Source: Pleomorphomonas carboxyditropha
Lineage (GTDB): Bacteria; Pseudomonadota; Alphaproteobacteria; Rhizobiales; Pleomorphomonadaceae
Assembly: GCF_002770725.1 (NCBI RefSeq)
Contig: NZ_NQVN01000001.1
Location: forward strand, 248,001-312,000
DNA: 64,000 nt
Reading direction: 5' to 3'
Shown: one piece after another, positions 30,997 through 45,928 of the stretch
Layout of the letters: each line of letters opens with the position of its first letter
Position numbering within the stretch: the first letter of the stretch is position 1
Made by a program: the position numbers and the translations under genes
The notes under the pieces: model-generated
Database searches by the model: none
What the model saw: the letters and a program-made list of their open reading frames with translations, nothing else
Told to the model about the DNA's origin: nothing

Positions 30997-31410
30997 TCAC
31001 TTCTCTCCACCATCGGCCGATACCGGCTTCAAGGCGGCGAAGATCTTCTTCTCGTGCTCGATCAGGGCGCGGGCTTCCTTCAGCGCCTTGTAGAGCTGGT
31101 CGGCGATGATGTGGTTGCTGATCCGCGTCACGAAGGGGATGGTGCTCGGCGCCGCCTGGATAATATCCTGGACGAGCGAGAAATAGCCGTCCTGGAACTT
31201 GGTGATCTCCCGCGACAGATACATCAGTTGCACGGCGAGGTAGATTCGCTTGGCCGGCGTATTGGCGGAATCGACCGTCAGGATGTCTTTTTCGCGCAGG
31301 ATCGGCGCGTTGCCCTCGATGTAGAGGCGCGTGCGCTGGTCGTCGTTGGTGATCATCGACTCGCCGATGATGATGCGTTCGCCGGGCTTCAGTTCAACCT
31401 TGAGGGTCAT
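30997..31410 (-). CDS. flbT: Flagellar biosynthesis repressor FlbT
   Basis: A 137-residue post-transcriptional regulator. KVELKPGERIIIGESMITND, LREKDILT and AVQLMYLSREITKFQDGYF are the conserved FlbT segments. In Caulobacter FlbT binds the flagellin mRNA leader and promotes its decay until the hook is finished. Here it is the second gene after the divergent flagellin (23 nt gap), so it should be co-transcribed with a target. FlaF, its antagonist, is encoded at 37810 beyond the other flagellins. Confidence 0.95.
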   Translation of the reverse strand: MTLKVELKPGERIIIGESMITNDDQRTRLYIEGNAPILREKDILTVDSANTPAKRIYLAVQLMYLSREITKFQDGYFSLVQDIIQAAPSTIPFVTRISNHIIADQLYKALKEARALIEHEKKIFAALKPVSADGGEK

Positions 31411-39814: not shown

Positions 39815-40935
39815 TACATCACCTCCACGTCGGCTTGCAGCGCGCCGGCCGCCTTGATCGCCTGCAGGATGGAAATGAGGTCGCGCGGGCCGAGGCCGAG
39901 GGCGTTGAGCCCGTCGACCAGTTCCTGCAGCGTCACGCCGGAGCGGACGACCGCCAACTGGTGCTCCTTGCCGTCGGCCACCTGGATCTGCGTCTGCGGC
40001 GTCACCACGGTCTGGCCGTTGGCAAACGGCTGTGGCTGCGACACCTGCGGGTTCTCGGTGATCATCACCGTCAGGTTGCCCTGGGCGACGGCCACCGTCG
40101 ACACGCGCACTTCCTGGCCCATGACGATGATGCCGGTCGCCTCGTCGACCACCACCTTGGCCGGCAGGTCGGGCTCGACGATCAACTGCTCGACGTCGGT
40201 CAGGAGGTCGACGATGTTGCCCCGGAACTTGGGGGGCATCGACAGGCGGACGGTCGACGGGTCGGTCGGCTCGGCCACCGGCGAGCCGTAGAGGTCGTTG
40301 ATGGCGAGAGCGATGCGGCGCGAGGTGGTGAAGTCGGGGTTGCGCAGCGACAGGCGGACGGTGCCGAGGTCGGCCAGCTTGAATTGCAGCTCGCGTTCGA
40401 TGACGGCGCCGTTGCTGATGCGACCCTGCGTCGGCACGCCGCGGGAAATCTTGGCCGCCTCGCCCTGGATGTCGAAGCCGCCGACGGCGATCGCGCCCTG
40501 GGCGATGGCGTAGACCTCGCCGTCGGCGCCCATCAGCGGCGTCACCAGAAGCTGGCCGCCCTGCAGGTTCTTGGCGTCGCCGAGCGCGCTGACCGACACG
40601 TCGATGGCGGTGCCCTGGGCGGCGAAGGCCGGCAGCTTGGCGGTGACCATGACGGCGGCGGTGTTGGCGGTGCGCATGGTGGAATCGCGCACGTTGACGC
40701 CGAGCCGCTCGAGCATCGCCTGCAAGCTCTGCTTGGTGAAAGGCGAGTTGTTGAGGCTGTCGCCGGTGCCTTGCAGGCCGACGACGAGACCGTAGCCGAT
40801 GAGCTGGTTCTCGCGAACGCCCTCGACGTCGACGATATCCTTGATGCGCGAGGCGGCGACCGCCGCTTCGGCGCCCATCAGGATGAGCATGAGGGCGCCA
40901 AGCGCGCCGAGAATCCTAGTCCGCATTGTCATCAT
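39814..40935 (-). CDS. flgI: Flagellar P-ring protein FlgI
   Basis: Periplasmic P-ring subunit, 373 residues including a signal peptide (ILGALGALMLILMGAEAAVA). Hallmarks: RIKDIVDVEGVRENQLIGYG, LVVGLQGTGDSLNNSPFT, SALGDAKNLQGGQLLVTPL and LQELVDGLNALGLGPRDLI. Of several clustered ATGs I chose 40935, with GGGAAA about 7 nt upstream; 40926 is also possible. A near-perfect sigma-54 promoter lies 39-53 nt upstream. First gene of flgI-cheL-flbY. Confidence 0.95.
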   Translation of the reverse strand: MMTMRTRILGALGALMLILMGAEAAVAASRIKDIVDVEGVRENQLIGYGLVVGLQGTGDSLNNSPFTKQSLQAMLERLGVNVRDSTMRTANTAAVMVTAKLPAFAAQGTAIDVSVSALGDAKNLQGGQLLVTPLMGADGEVYAIAQGAIAVGGFDIQGEAAKISRGVPTQGRISNGAVIERELQFKLADLGTVRLSLRNPDFTTSRRIALAINDLYGSPVAEPTDPSTVRLSMPPKFRGNIVDLLTDVEQLIVEPDLPAKVVVDEATGIIVMGQEVRVSTVAVAQGNLTVMITENPQVSQPQPFANGQTVVTPQTQIQVADGKEHQLAVVRSGVTLQELVDGLNALGLGPRDLISILQAIKAAGALQADVEVM

Positions 40936-40973
40936 CCCCGTGTTTCCCGACACGGCTTCCCGAGGACGTTTTC

Positions 40974-40988
40974 GCAATCGGCATGCCA
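40974..40988 (-). promoter_or_regulatory. Sigma-54 promoter of the flgI operon
   Basis: On the minus strand TGGCATGCCGATTGC differs from TGGCACG-N4-TTGC at one base, with GG and GC 12 nt apart. The predicted start is about 25-30 nt before the flgI ATG. Confidence 0.8.
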
Positions 40989-41161
40989 AACTGGCATAAA
41001 TAGGAACCATTTTTAACTGTTTGAAATAAAGCACTTATTTTGATTTTGTCCGCATCCTCGATCCGAACTCGCGCTTTATGGGCGGCATTTCTTGCCGGGT
41101 GGGCGGGGAAGCGGTAACCTTGCCGTGTCGAAACTGCCGGGTCAGCTTCAGGGAACGAGCG

Positions 41162-41748: not shown

Positions 41749-42165
41749 ATGTCGATTGAGCTTGCCGATGACTACCGGCCGTCCGACGACGAGCCGTTCA
41801 TGAATGACCGCCAGCGCGAATACTTCCGGCGCAAACTGCTCCAGTGGAAAGAGGACATCCTGCGCGAAAGCAAGGAGACCCTCCAGAACCTTCAGAACGA
41901 AAACACCAACCTTCCCGACATCGCCGACCGGGCGTCGTCGGAAACCGACCGCTCGATCGAGCTCAGGGCGCGCGACCGCCAGCGCAAGCTGATCTCCAAG
42001 ATCGAGGCGGCCATCAAGCGGATCGAGGACGGCTCCTACGGCTATTGCGAGGAGACCGGCGAGCCGATCTCGCTGAAGCGTCTCGACGCCCGGCCGATCG
42101 CCACTCTGTCGATCGAGGCGCAGGAGCGGCACGAGCGGCGCGAGAAGGTCTATCGCGACGAGTGA
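41749..42165 (+). CDS. dksA: RNA polymerase-binding protein DksA, single-cysteine type
   Basis: A 138-residue transcription factor acting in the RNA polymerase secondary channel with ppGpp. The coiled-coil tip DIADRA (D57, D60, A62) retains the functional DxxDxA. The globular end SYGYCEETGEPISLKRLDAR keeps only Cys100 of the four zinc cysteines, as in the cysteine-poor DksA of alphaproteobacteria. It is a standalone gene with its own terminator. It lies among flagellar genes here, as in several Hyphomicrobiales; a flagellar role is not implied by the sequence. Confidence 0.94.
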   Translation: MSIELADDYRPSDDEPFMNDRQREYFRRKLLQWKEDILRESKETLQNLQNENTNLPDIADRASSETDRSIELRARDRQRKLISKIEAAIKRIEDGSYGYCEETGEPISLKRLDARPIATLSIEAQERHERREKVYRDE

Positions 42166-42193
42166 CAGAGCCGCCTTTGCCTGAACGTGATGA

Positions 42194-42218
42194 GGGGCGC
42201 CCGCAAGGCGCCCCTTTT
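42194..42218 (+). terminator. dksA terminator
   Basis: A perfect 8-bp stem GGGGCGCC / GGCGCCCC with loop CGCAA followed by TTTT, 28 nt after the dksA stop. Confidence 0.88.
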
Positions 42219-42245
42219 CGTTATCCCGATCGGATGATTCGCCTG

Positions 42246-42400
42246 GGCGCGACCTCCGCGATGACTTGGGAAGGGAGGTCGCGCCGCTCGGGAAAGCCGG
42301 CCCGGAACTTGGGGAAGGGGCCGGCGGGATCGCCTCGGGCCAGTTGGGGAGCGGCCCTTCGGCGATACGGCTCGCTTGGGATGCTTGGGGAGCGCGAGCC
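42246..42400. ncRNA. Array of four hairpins with common TTGGGGA loops (candidate structured RNA)
   Basis: Four consecutive stem-loops fill this gap. H1 (42246-42285) has a 12-bp perfect stem GGCGCGACCTCC / GGAGGTCGCGCC. H2 (42296-42325) has an 8-bp stem GCCGGCCC / GGGCCGGC. H3 (42329-42366) has ATCGCC / GGCGAT plus GGGCC / GGCCC. H4 (42369-42400) has a 7-bp stem GGCTCGC / GCGAGCC. Every loop carries the same motif: CTTGGGAAG, CTTGGGGAAG, TTGGGGAGC, and TTGGGA..TTGGGGAGC. On the minus strand the loops read YTCCCCAA, an anti-Shine-Dalgarno-like sequence, and the array would be the 3' UTR of flgH. On the plus strand it follows the dksA terminator. No promoter or T-tract is evident, so strand and transcription are unknown. 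Confidence 0.4.
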
Positions 42401-42413
42401 GATCCTTGTGCCG

Positions 42414-43157
42414 TCAGAACGGCAGCAGGATATCGAGCACCTGCTGACCGGTGCGCGGCTGCTGCACGTCGGAGATCTGGCCGCGGCCGCCGTAGGAGAT
42501 GCGAGCCTCGGCGATCTTGGTGCTCTCGATGGTGTTGTCGGCGGCGATGTCCTCGGGCCGGACGACGCCGGCCACCACCAGCTCGCGGATCTCGTAGTTG
42601 ACGCGCACCTCCTGGCGGCCCTCGATGACGAGGTTGCCGTTGGGCAGGAGCTGGGTCACCACGGCGGCGACATTGGTGGAGAGGCTTTCCGATCGGTCAA
42701 TGGTGCCTTCGCCCTTGTAGGAGGAGGCGCCGGTGGTCGATGCGAGGTCGCTGGCCGCCATGCCGGCCGGCAGGGCGATGGTGTCGATGGCGGTACCGAG
42801 CGCACCGCCGACGCCGGTCGAGTCGCTCGACGTGCGCTTCCGCTCCGAGGAGTTGTCGAAGGCCGCCTTGTCGGAGATCGCCACCTTGACGGTGAGGATA
42901 TCGCCGACGTTGCGGGCCCGCTGGTCCTTGAAGAAGGTGCGCGAGCCGGACTGCCACAGCGAATTGGGGCTGTAGGCGATCGGCTGCACGGTGGGCATCG
43001 GCATCTGCACCGGCTTGTAGCCGGCCTGGGCGGTGGGGTTTTCGATGGCCGACAGCTTGGGGGTCTGACCGACCTGCGACAGGCGATCGATGGTGCTGCC
43101 GCAGGCGGAAAGGCCGATGCCGAGGAGGGCGATGGCGAGGCCGGTGGGGAAACGCAT
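42414..43157 (-). CDS. flgH: Flagellar L-ring lipoprotein FlgH
   Basis: Outer-membrane L-ring subunit, 247 residues. A signal peptide with lipobox GLSAC is followed by SLWQSGSRTFFKDQRARNVG, DILTVKVAISDKA, LLPNGNLVIEGRQEVRVNYE, and VVAGVVRPEDI with GGRGQISDVQQPR at the C-terminus, all FlgH hallmarks. It is the last gene of flgF-flgG-flgA-flgH, 10 nt after flgA. The hairpin array at 42246-42400 lies immediately downstream of its stop. Confidence 0.95.
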   Translation of the reverse strand: MRFPTGLAIALLGIGLSACGSTIDRLSQVGQTPKLSAIENPTAQAGYKPVQMPMPTVQPIAYSPNSLWQSGSRTFFKDQRARNVGDILTVKVAISDKAAFDNSSERKRTSSDSTGVGGALGTAIDTIALPAGMAASDLASTTGASSYKGEGTIDRSESLSTNVAAVVTQLLPNGNLVIEGRQEVRVNYEIRELVVAGVVRPEDIAADNTIESTKIAEARISYGGRGQISDVQQPRTGQQVLDILLPF

Positions 43158-43167
43158 CTTGTGATCC

Positions 43168-44157
43168 TCAGTTCATCGCCGTCTTGACGACGGACGGCCC
43201 GCTCGACGCGGTCACTTCAACGATGCCGGCTCCGGTGACGACGCCCTGGATGGTGCGCTTGGACTGCTCGTTGAGCACGGAGACGAGGTCGCCCCGGGCG
43301 CCGTCGCCGAGGGCGCGGCCGCGGGCGCTGAGCGTCAGGCCGGGGCGCGAATACTGCAGCGTGACGAGGTCGCCGCGCAGGATGACGCGGGGTGGTTCGA
43401 TATCGGCGGGGGCGATGATCTCGCCGGCCCGGAGGGGGCGCTTGGCGGCCATGTCGACGAGGTCGCTCGTGTCGATGACGGCCGAGCCGGGCACGCGCCG
43501 CTTGTCGATGCGGACGATCGTGACGTCGGAGGCGTGGATGACGTCGCGGCGGTCGATCGGCCGGCTCAGCACCGGCACGGCCATGGTCTCGACGGCACGG
43601 CCGCCGACCGACAGCGTCCTGTCTTCCCCGCCGAGGTCGATGGCGACCATGGCGTTGAAGCGGCCGGATTCCGGCTGGAGGACGAAGTTGGAGAGGGTGG
43701 CCGGCGTGGCGGCGGTGGCCGCGGCGGCAACCGGCGCAAGGGGAGCGTCGACGGCGACGTCGATGTTGTCGACCGCCACGCCCAGGCGGGTGGCGGCGGC
43801 GTCGGCGATCAGCGCCTTGATGGCGGCGGCGTCGACCATGGTGGCGCGGCGGACGACGCTGACGCTGCCGAAGGCCGGCAGGCGGTCGACGGCGAGGCCG
43901 GCGGCGACGGCGGCCTTGACCGCCTCGGCGGCCGGCAGGGCGCCGGTGACGCCGAGGTCCGGCGCCCGGAACACGGCGCGGCCGGCCAGATCGCCGGCGC
44001 CGTCGAACAGGTCGCCGAGCGTGACGACGGCGCCGTCGATCTCGACGCGCTGCCTGAGCTCGGCGGCGGACGCCTGGTGGGTGGCGATGAAGCCGGCCGC
44101 CAGGCTGGCGAGGGCCGCGGCGAGGACGATCCGGAGGAGGGTGCGCATCATGGTCAT
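43168..44157 (-). CDS. flgA: Flagellar P-ring assembly chaperone FlgA
   Basis: Periplasmic chaperone for P-ring assembly, 329 residues. A signal peptide (LLRIVLAAALASLAAGFIA) precedes an Ala-rich N-terminal region with low similarity. The C-terminal SAF-type domain contains AAKRPLRAGEIIAPADIEPP, RVILRGDLVTLQYSRPG, ARGRALGDGARGDLVSVLNE and RTIQGVVTGAGIVEV, typical of FlgA. Start ATG 44157 lies 2 nt after the flgG stop; ATGs at 44151 and 44148 are alternatives. The middle of the operon position fits. Confidence 0.88.
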   Translation of the reverse strand: MTMMRTLLRIVLAAALASLAAGFIATHQASAAELRQRVEIDGAVVTLGDLFDGAGDLAGRAVFRAPDLGVTGALPAAEAVKAAVAAGLAVDRLPAFGSVSVVRRATMVDAAAIKALIADAAATRLGVAVDNIDVAVDAPLAPVAAAATAATPATLSNFVLQPESGRFNAMVAIDLGGEDRTLSVGGRAVETMAVPVLSRPIDRRDVIHASDVTIVRIDKRRVPGSAVIDTSDLVDMAAKRPLRAGEIIAPADIEPPRVILRGDLVTLQYSRPGLTLSARGRALGDGARGDLVSVLNEQSKRTIQGVVTGAGIVEVTASSGPSVVKTAMN

Positions 44158-44159
44158 GC

Positions 44160-44948
44160 TCACTTGCCCAGGCTGGACGTCGTCTGGGACATCTCGTCGG
44201 CGGCGGTGATGATGCGGGAGTTCATCTCGTAGGCCCGCTGCGCCGAGATCAGCGACGACAGCTCGTTCACCGCCTCGACGTTGGAGGATTCGAGGTAGCC
44301 CTGCAGCAGCGTGCCGTAGCCGGCGTCGCCGGGGTTGCCGGTCTGGGCGGTGCCGCTCGACGCCGTCTCGAGGAACAGGTTGTCGCCCATCGGCTCGAGG
44401 CCGTTCTTGTTGACGAAGCGGGCGAGCTCGATCTGGCCGAGCACCGTCGCGGTGGTGGCGTTGCCGATCTTGGCCTGCACCTGGCCGGTGTTGGAGATGG
44501 TGAGGTCGCTGGCGTTCTGCGGCACGGTGATGGCCGGCAGCACGGTATAGCCGTCGGCGGTCACCAGCGTGCCGGTGCTGTCGAGCTCGAAGGAGCCGTC
44601 GCGGGTATAGGCGGTGCGGCCGTCGGGCAGATCGATCTGGAAGAAGCCCTCGCCGCGGATGGTGAGATCCTTGTCGTTGCCGGTGGCCTCGGGGTCGCCC
44701 TGCGTCATGTTGCGCGGCGTGGCGACGACGCGGACGCCCGAGCCGAGCTGCACGCCGGCCGGCACCTGGGTGTTGGCGTCCGACGTGGTCGAGCCCTGGC
44801 GGCGCAGCGTCTGGTAGAGCAGGTCCTGGAAGTTGGCGCGCTGGCTCTTGTAGCCGGTGGTGCGCATGTTGGCGATGTTGTTGGAGATGACGGAGACGTT
44901 GGTCTCCTGGGCCTTCATGCCGGTGGCGGCGATGGTCAGGGCTTTCAT
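44160..44948 (-). CDS. flgG: Flagellar distal rod protein FlgG
   Basis: A 262-residue rod subunit. MKALTIAATGMKAQETNVSV followed by ISNNIANMRTTGYKSQR is the conserved N-terminal helix. GEGFFQIDLPDGRTAYTRDG and the C-terminal SNVEAVNELSSLISAQRAYE match FlgG. It is the second gene after flgF, 46 nt away, in the sigma-54-driven operon. Confidence 0.96.
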   Translation of the reverse strand: MKALTIAATGMKAQETNVSVISNNIANMRTTGYKSQRANFQDLLYQTLRRQGSTTSDANTQVPAGVQLGSGVRVVATPRNMTQGDPEATGNDKDLTIRGEGFFQIDLPDGRTAYTRDGSFELDSTGTLVTADGYTVLPAITVPQNASDLTISNTGQVQAKIGNATTATVLGQIELARFVNKNGLEPMGDNLFLETASSGTAQTGNPGDAGYGTLLQGYLESSNVEAVNELSSLISAQRAYEMNSRIITAADEMSQTTSSLGK

Positions 44949-44994
44949 GTGCGGTCGCTCCTCGGAGCAAGAGCTCCAAATTCTTGTTTTTCAG

Positions 44995-45738
44995 TCACGC
45001 GTTGACCGAGCCGAGGCGCTCGATCGCCCTGGAGCTGAGGTCGTTCTGCTGCTTGACCATGTTGGAGATGCGCTCGTAGGCGCGCTGGACGTCCAGCATG
45101 GCGGTGAGTTCCTGGACGCCCGAGACGTTGGATTTCTCGAGGGCGCCCTGGCGGACGCGGACGAAGGCGGGCGCCTGGGGCACCGCGCTGGCCGAATAGA
45201 GGTTCTCGCCGTCCTTGGAGAGCACCGTGGTGTCGGGGAACTCGGCGATGCGGAGCTTGCCCTTCAGGCCGGCGCTGGTGGAGATCGTGCCGTCGTGGGC
45301 GATGGAGATGTTGGTCTCCTCGGGCTCGAAGGTGATTTCGCCGCCGTCGCCGAGCACCGGCTTGCCGTCGGCGGTCACCAGGCGGCCGGTGCTGTCGATG
45401 GCGAAATCGCCGGCGCGGGTGTAGCGCTCGCCGGCCGGCGTCCCCACGGCGAAGAAGCCGTTCTCGCCCTCGATCGCCACGTCGAGGTCGTTGCCGGTCA
45501 TCTCGATCGATCCGGCCGAGAAGTCGTGCACGGTGGCGAGCTCGCGGACGAAGCGGTTGTCGCGGTCGCGGCGGGGAAAAAGCGTCGCCGACGCCTTCGG
45601 CATGGTCGTTTCCTCGAAGTCGAGCGAAACGCGCTTGAAGCCGGCGGTGTCCATGTTGGCCACGTTGTTGGCGATGACGTCCAGCTTGCGCCTCAGCGCA
45701 ACCTGACCCGACAGCGCCACCAGAGTTGCATTCTGCAT
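44995..45738 (-). CDS. flgF: Flagellar proximal rod protein FlgF
   Basis: A 247-residue rod subunit. LSGQVALRRKLDVIANNVAN with MDTAGFKR forms the N-terminal helix. EGENGFFAVGTPAGERYTRA and KSNVSGVQELTAMLDVQRAY are rod-protein motifs. It lies first in flgF-flgG-flgA-flgH and 70 nt after a sigma-54 promoter, the same order as the Caulobacter class III operon. Confidence 0.94.
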   Translation of the reverse strand: MQNATLVALSGQVALRRKLDVIANNVANMDTAGFKRVSLDFEETTMPKASATLFPRRDRDNRFVRELATVHDFSAGSIEMTGNDLDVAIEGENGFFAVGTPAGERYTRAGDFAIDSTGRLVTADGKPVLGDGGEITFEPEETNISIAHDGTISTSAGLKGKLRIAEFPDTTVLSKDGENLYSASAVPQAPAFVRVRQGALEKSNVSGVQELTAMLDVQRAYERISNMVKQQNDLSSRAIERLGSVNA

Positions 45739-45807
45739 GGCAAATCGTTCCCAAGTCCCAATCGGACGGCGTCACGCTCCCCAGCGTCGCTGCCCGAAAC
45801 GGGTATC

Positions 45808-45822
45808 GCAGGGAACGTGCCA
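45808..45822 (-). promoter_or_regulatory. Sigma-54 promoter of the flgF operon
   Basis: On the minus strand TGGCACGTTCCCTGC matches TGGCACG-N4-TTGC with a single mismatch (C for T), GG and GC 12 nt apart. It lies 70 nt before flgF. Confidence 0.82.
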
Positions 45823-45928
45823 ATTGGATAATCTTTATAAAACAATGGATTGACGGATATGACCCGCCGGCTGTGGCCGGCGTTTCTTGCCGGCCGGCAG
45901 TCGAGGGGCGGCAAGATTTGCCGGGGCG

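Follow-up and report, generated by a model that had tools for sequence, protein, structure and literature searches.

C-rich hairpins behind flgH match the flgF leader of their own operon across Hyphomicrobiales and suggest a built-in feedback switch

In Pleomorphomonas carboxyditropha, the tail of a flagellar operon carries C-rich hairpin loops, and the leader of the operon's first gene, flgF, has sequences complementary to them. Across the order Hyphomicrobiales, the leader motif and the tail hairpins occur together and vary jointly. This leader-tail match has persisted in many related bacteria and points to a feedback switch that is part of the operon itself. The tail probably pairs with the flgF leader and its ribosome-binding site, in cis or as a 3′ UTR-derived small RNA (sRNA), most likely exerting negative feedback. 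Few bacterial messages are known whose two ends pair with each other. If the pairing is true, a flagellar operon would have it built in, in multivalent form, with both ends varying jointly throughout a bacterial order.

Four C-rich hairpins between flgH and dksA

As listed in Table 1, four adjacent hairpins with C-rich loops of the CUUCCC(C)AAGUC type were found on the minus strand at 42246-42401 of the 64,000-nt stretch of DNA analysed here (the window), flanked by flgH and dksA. H1 is the first hairpin of the flgH 3′ UTR and starts 12 nt past the flgH stop codon. A sequence-only reading had placed the array at 42246-42400; the location was right, but the outer arm of H1 extends one base further. 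A hairpin was counted as strict if it had at least six Watson-Crick pairs and its loop contained TCCC(C)A. There are three such hairpins in the real segment, while none of 3000 dinucleotide shuffles had three or more (2878 had none, 118 had one, and 4 had two). Only one of 2776 overlapping 184-nt tiles from both strands of the window has three strict hairpins, and that tile is the array itself. The fold energy of the minus strand is better than that of shuffled sequences (z -3.91, 0/200 as good). Thus, the four adjacent hairpins are present as had been claimed, and random sequence does not yield such arrays.

The same reading had considered that the plus strand might form a CsrA sponge of the CsrB/RsmZ kind with GGGGA loops, and the plus-strand loops do read UUGGG(G)A. 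However, the CsrA protein that such a sponge requires was not found in the genome itself by a PF02599 search (0 matches; 3 of 14 control genomes have a match), and the fold energy of the plus strand is no better than that of shuffled sequences (z -0.38, 69/200 as good). Moreover, a terminator-like site separates dksA from the array, and the polarity of the T-tracts described below favours the minus strand. The sponge was rejected, and I regard it as hardly credible.

The genes of the operon were identified by protein family models (Table 1), and the plus-strand dksA gene by TIGR02420. Transcription of dksA should end at the intrinsic terminator-like site behind this gene and so not reach the array. 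The array is thus most probably part of the flg transcript from the minus strand and forms the 3′ UTR of the flgF-flgG-flgA-flgH message, whose co-transcription is assumed from the gene order. On the minus strand, 42100-42450 showed no site resembling an intrinsic terminator. From the start site inferred for the sigma-54-type promoter, the flgF leader would be about 60-70 nt in length. A relaxed sigma-54-type pattern exists upstream of flgF in 146 of the 149 loci compared below. The proposal that this message ends in a multivalent, structured 3′ UTR whose minus-strand loops are C-rich and anti-Shine-Dalgarno is borne out. In the terminator region of dksA (42165-42223, plus strand), there is a weak match to the BjrC68 sRNA (17.6 bits; gathering score, 39).

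Table 1. Features of the flg locus in the window
Feature	Position	Strand	Description	Basis
H1	42368-42401	-	8 bp + inner 3 bp; loop region CUCCCCAA + AUCCCAA	sequence, fold
H2	42329-42366	-	two tiers, outer 6 bp + inner 6 bp; loop GCUCCCCAAC	sequence, fold
H3	42296-42325	-	8 bp; loop CUUCCCCAAGUUC, with CUUCCCCAAG	sequence, fold
Linker H3-H4	42286-42295	-	UUUCCCGAGC, extra C-run (UUUCCC); variable within the genus	
H4	42246-42285	-	12 bp; 16-nt loop with CUUCCCAAGUCAUC and UUCCCAAGUC	sequence, fold
Intrinsic terminator-like site	42192-42216	+	behind dksA, before the array	
flgH	42414-43157	-	last gene of the operon	NCBIfam NF001305, 325.3 bits, cut-off 255
flgA	43168-44159	-	approximate bounds (within ORF 43168-44979)	TIGR03170 C-terminal domain, 123.1 bits, cut-off 54.65
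flgG	44160-44948	-		TIGR02488, 364.5 bits, cut-off 252.75
flgF	44995-45738	-	first gene of the operon; start codon 45738-45736	TIGR02490, 197.2 bits, cut-off 178.5
Leader site B	45748-45757	-	GACUUGGGAA; includes the putative Shine-Dalgarno sequence of flgF; complementary to the H4 loop	
Leader site A	45775-45786	-	hairpin CGCUGGGGAGCG (CUGGGGAGC); complement of the H1 and H2 loops	
Sigma-54-type promoter	45808-45823	-	TTGGCACG-N5-TGC ahead of the flgF leader	pattern match

Complementarity of the tail loops to the flgF leader

The sequence-only reading stood in part. It missed the complementarity of the loops to the flgF leader and its Shine-Dalgarno site, and also the joint variation of the flgF leader and the flgH tail across genera. 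Site A has a 9-nt complement in the H1/H2 loops, the H1 part of which is CGCUCCCCA, and site B has a 10-nt perfect complement in the H4 loop at 42263-42272. The calculated duplex energies are -18.0 kcal/mol for the H2 loop with site A and -17.1 kcal/mol for the H4 loop with site B. H3 complements site B less well than H4 does (-14.1 kcal/mol). In the predicted fold of the leader, site B is only partly open (mean unpaired, 0.36), and the value for site A is 0.48. Within the window alone, a match of this length is not unusual: of 3000 shuffled tails, 96 reach at least 10 nt with the leader. Thus, the weight of the pairing case lies in the cross-species comparison.

In icaR of Staphylococcus aureus, too, a C-rich motif of the 3′ UTR is complementary to the message's own Shine-Dalgarno region. 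The icaR motif, UCCCCUG, pairs with that region, and the pairing obstructs the initiation complex and creates a substrate for RNase III (PMC3868564). The icaR case concerns one gene and one motif and is shown by experiment (PMC3868564). In contrast, the flg array, known from sequence alone, belongs to a four-gene operon and has several loops, two leader sites with two loop types, and joint variation throughout an order.

Conservation within the genus

The array segment was matched in all 14 genus genomes searched. Behind flgH, it was read in 15 loci, as one of these genomes (G011) has two. In G011, two different copies of the flg locus, on C90 (L011) and C258 (L020), each have an array; the listed contamination of G011 is 4%, and the assembly may be mixed. 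In the 15-sequence genus alignment, 10 of the 38 predicted pairs have changed on both sides with the pair kept in at least one sequence. An inner G-C pair of H2 has become A-U in 4 of the 15 sequences. In H4, an A-U pair has become G-C in three sequences and a C-G pair has become U-A in one. The array is conserved in relatives, with these compensatory changes in the stems. The most divergent genomes (L013 and L014) have several different stems, an altered H1 stem among them, and the loops CUCCCCAA and CUUCCC(C)AA.

On the leader side, GACUUGGGAA of site B is found in 13 of the 14 other genus leaders (L149-L161). The fourteenth (L162, from the divergent genome G006) has GACUUGGGGAA. It has gained one G in the leader and one C in the H4 loop, and its complements are 12 and 11 nt in length. 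By eye, CUCCC(C) hairpins were also seen behind flgH in Stappia, Pseudovibrio, Cohaesibacter, Bosea, Rhodoplanes, and Bradyrhizobium.

Joint variation of leader and tail across Hyphomicrobiales

Is the match kept in more distant genera? I compared 151 loci, namely the window, 15 genome stretches of the genus and its sister genus, 60 stretches of other genomes of the order, and 75 of 80 named loci. The five nearest named FlgH loci (L047-L051; 87 to 95% identical; four Pleomorphomonas and one proteobacterial MAG) were left out because the genus is covered by the genome stretches. The flgF leader and the flgH 3′ UTR were obtained from 149 loci; L163 (sister-genus genome G018) and L072 have no recognisable flgF start. 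After one locus that was too short and 58 near-duplicates among the remaining 148 had been removed, 90 non-redundant loci were left. Of these, 68 have both the leader motif and the tail hairpins, 5 have the leader motif only, 2 have the tail hairpins only, and 15 have neither. With a stricter stem rule, the counts are 64, 9, 3, and 14, respectively. Both the leader motif and the tail hairpins are absent from the Methylobacterium loci L053, L054, and L062, as if lost together.

The longest complement between a leader and its own 3′ UTR came to 8.81 in the 90 loci, compared with 7.61 for swapped tails (0/20,000 permutations). A composition control with the reversed 3′ UTR gave 7.17 for own and 6.96 for swapped tails, and a 250-nt stretch of flgH coding sequence from the same locus gave 7.18 (Wilcoxon p 4e-11). 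When the complement was anchored at GGGA, the values were 8.83 and 7.51 (n=72, 0/20,000). Long matches are found in distant genera, of 13 nt in L056, 12 nt in L195 and L206, and 11 nt in L204, L233, and L210. The own tail ranks first, alone or in a tie, in only 11 of 90 rows.

The forms of the two ends correspond as well. Among the 64 loci with both motifs under the stem rule of this test, a tail loop matches the base before the SD-proximal G-run of the leader in 57, compared with 28.5 (sd 3.7) after shuffling (0/20,000), where the permutations leave shared ancestry in place and G+C content could raise the C-C match. By type, the match was seen in 22/26 for T, 17/18 for C, and 18/20 for A. All four leaders with five G residues have a tail loop with five C residues. 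In the main and hold-out sets together (117 loci), the first and last sites differ in type in 62 leaders; the own tail has both types in 30 of them, with 14.7 expected.

Similar loops repeated on different stems would suit a protein array. It may be supposed that the loops are sites for an RNA-binding protein such as an FlbT-like protein, Hfq, or a cold-shock protein, with the complementarity to the leader being secondary. An FlbT gene does exist in the window (30997-31410). However, a protein site gives no reason to expect matched changes in a leader at a distance of 3.5 kb, and a CsrA gene was not found. This explanation is improbable.

Another explanation is that the hairpins are ordinary stabilisers of the 3′ end or a transcription terminator, with loops that are C-rich merely by composition. 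In 84 loci with a C-loop hairpin, a T-tract follows one in 38, and an A-tract precedes one in 14 (opposite-strand terminator). Judging by the 38 T-tracts, some of the genera seem to carry the loop on the terminator of the operon itself, and there the C-loop hairpin is terminator-like. However, the stems change while the loops are kept, and the leader and tail motifs are present together, absent together, and vary jointly. Thus, I consider a purely structural role highly improbable. A C-loop borne on a terminator would suit cis and trans action alike.

Hold-out set and relatedness

After the measures had been fixed, 40 further loci were fetched; 2 were too short and 11 were near-duplicates, leaving 27. 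In this hold-out set, 17 loci have both motifs, 2 have the leader motif only, none has the tail hairpins only, and 8 have neither. The base match was found in 12 of the 17 (7.5 expected; 245/20,000) and the match of both base and run length in 7 (2.7 expected; 116/20,000). The longest match was 8.19 compared with 7.39 for swapped tails (2/20,000).

Tails were then exchanged between nearest relatives only. The own tail was better in 21 loci, tied in 15, and worse in 9 (n=45; sign p 0.021, Wilcoxon 0.009). For the loci with both motifs, it was better in 15, tied in 13, and worse in 6 (n=34; sign 0.039, Wilcoxon 0.052), and for anchored matches the numbers were 16, 13, and 7 (n=36; both p about 0.047). 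The changes were also placed on a quick FlgF+FlgH tree, made with no mixture model. The C state of the leader changed 10 times on this tree. In 6 independent supported pairs, the tail changed the same way in 4.8 and the opposite way in 0.1 on average (sign test, median p 0.0625, range 0.031-0.625). For the five-G state, the tail changed the same way in 2.9 of 3. For the other states, the same and other ways were 1.6 and 0 of 3 (A), 3.2 and 1.1 of 8 (T), 1.8 and 0.6 of 5 (three-G), and 3.2 and 0.1 of 5 (presence). The median p of the tree-based sign tests is above 0.05. The relatedness-aware tests are weaker than the permutations, yet they point the same way. Together with the base matches in the main and hold-out sets, these results are good evidence, though not proof, that the leader-tail pairing has been maintained in relatives.

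Does the tail act on many messages?

Since the loops are C-rich anti-Shine-Dalgarno sequences, they might belong to a trans-acting 3′ UTR-derived sRNA that silences many messages in the manner of AbcR, with flgF as one target among them. AbcR1 and AbcR2 of Brucella are two sRNAs regulating ABC-transporter transcripts, and their single-stranded CUCCCA and GUUCCC motifs bind target mRNAs (PMC5461406). The CUCCCA motif is common to AbcR and the flg array. In the genome, CTTGGGA occurs 60 times shortly before an ATG, compared with 13 times for the backwards control, so that other targets in trans are possible. The loop 9-mer GCTCCCCAA is not enriched genome-wide (21 sites, 33 for the backwards control). 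As a point against such an sRNA, the exact 12-mer of the leader hairpin at site A (CGCTGGGGAGCG) occurs only twice in the genome; the second copy lies at G000 C14:28708-28719 (L264). The joint variation also counts against a general sRNA, because the tail loops track the lineage-specific form of the flgF leader in the same operon (a base ahead of the G-run that is T, C, or A, and a run of three to five G residues), which a general anti-Shine-Dalgarno loop would not need. A kinship with the AbcR, ar14, or cuckoo RNAs had been suggested for the array; Rfam covariance models gave no match at gathering score in the whole window, and the suggestion gained no support. Sub-threshold matches over the array, such as ar7 on the minus strand (12.2 bits compared with 60), were treated as chance. 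A general sRNA is thus an unlikely explanation.

The proposed feedback would also resemble known operon autoregulation by RNA. In Vibrio cholerae, OppZ and CarZ arise from the 3′ end of an operon, base-pair with their own transcript, and inhibit its translation, giving negative feedback (PMC7398697). They are sRNAs processed by RNase E (PMC7398697), while the flg loops sit in stable hairpins and their target lies in a structured 5′ leader. The repeated loops, the two address types, and the order-wide spread set the flg array apart from both icaR and OppZ/CarZ. No report of leader-tail pairing in the flg operon was seen among the literature matches listed, a scope with few subscription papers.

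Proposed mechanism

In the preferred reading, the flgF-flgG-flgA-flgH message would be made from the sigma-54-type promoter with the array as its 3′ UTR. The H1 and H2 loops would pair with leader hairpin A, and the H3 and H4 loops with site B. The ribosome-binding site of flgF would thereby be covered, and flgF would be translated less or become less stable. With the Shine-Dalgarno sequence of flgF inside site B, a paired leader should keep ribosomes out, and repression is the most likely effect. An activating role of the tail, opening the leader, is not favoured over repression. Finished messages may act in cis, or one mRNA on another; in the trans form, the agent would be an RNA cut from the flgH 3′ end. 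The operon would thereby be damped, with negative feedback on the supply of rod, L-ring, and P-ring chaperone.

The order of pairing is parallel (A with H1/H2, B with H3/H4), so that kissing loops seem to fit better than one long helix. It is conceivable, though only tentatively proposed, that the loops form a two-address kissing-loop clamp which closes the operon mRNA head to tail, H1/H2 binding the leader hairpin and H3/H4 the Shine-Dalgarno sequence. The translation of flgF would then sense the complete transcription of the operon, as a checkpoint of assembly order kept across Hyphomicrobiales.

The flg-Rhizobiales RNA and the flgI leader

The flg-Rhizobiales RNA (RF01736), a structured RNA listed in 2010, is named in a table entry of PMC2864571 and in a listing of PMC3765529. 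It corresponds to the flgF leader in Bradyrhizobium-type and Rhodoplanes loci, and its model covers the leader only, with the tail outside it. RF01736 scored above its gathering score (55 bits) at the flgF leader in 6 of 17 relative loci, and these leaders have UUGGGAG loops and GGGGAG as the Shine-Dalgarno site. The flgF leader of the window itself scored 34.9 bits and the array region 13.5 bits (plus strand), both below the gathering score. A class-wide search says little about the spread of this RNA, as only 2 of 241 genomes, one of them the genome studied here, matched at E 0.001 or better and none was over the cut-off. Leader-tail pairing would give the flg-Rhizobiales RNA a partner and a testable role; if the clamp is true, this orphan RNA would be one half of a two-part switch. 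The partners of other orphan leader RNAs may be worth seeking in the 3′ UTR of their own operons.

The C-run of the linker was tried as a partner of the flgI leader (UUUCCCGA with UCGGGAAA). This match exists in the window and some relatives and, by eye, does not track the flgI leader across loci; it was rejected, and a tail partner of the flgI leader was not found. The flgI gene has a sigma-54-type promoter of its own. In its leader (40920-40990, minus strand), the hairpin CCGUGU-CGGGAA-ACACGG precedes GGGGAUG. The hairpin and the GGGGAUG are identical in the 14 flgI leaders compared.
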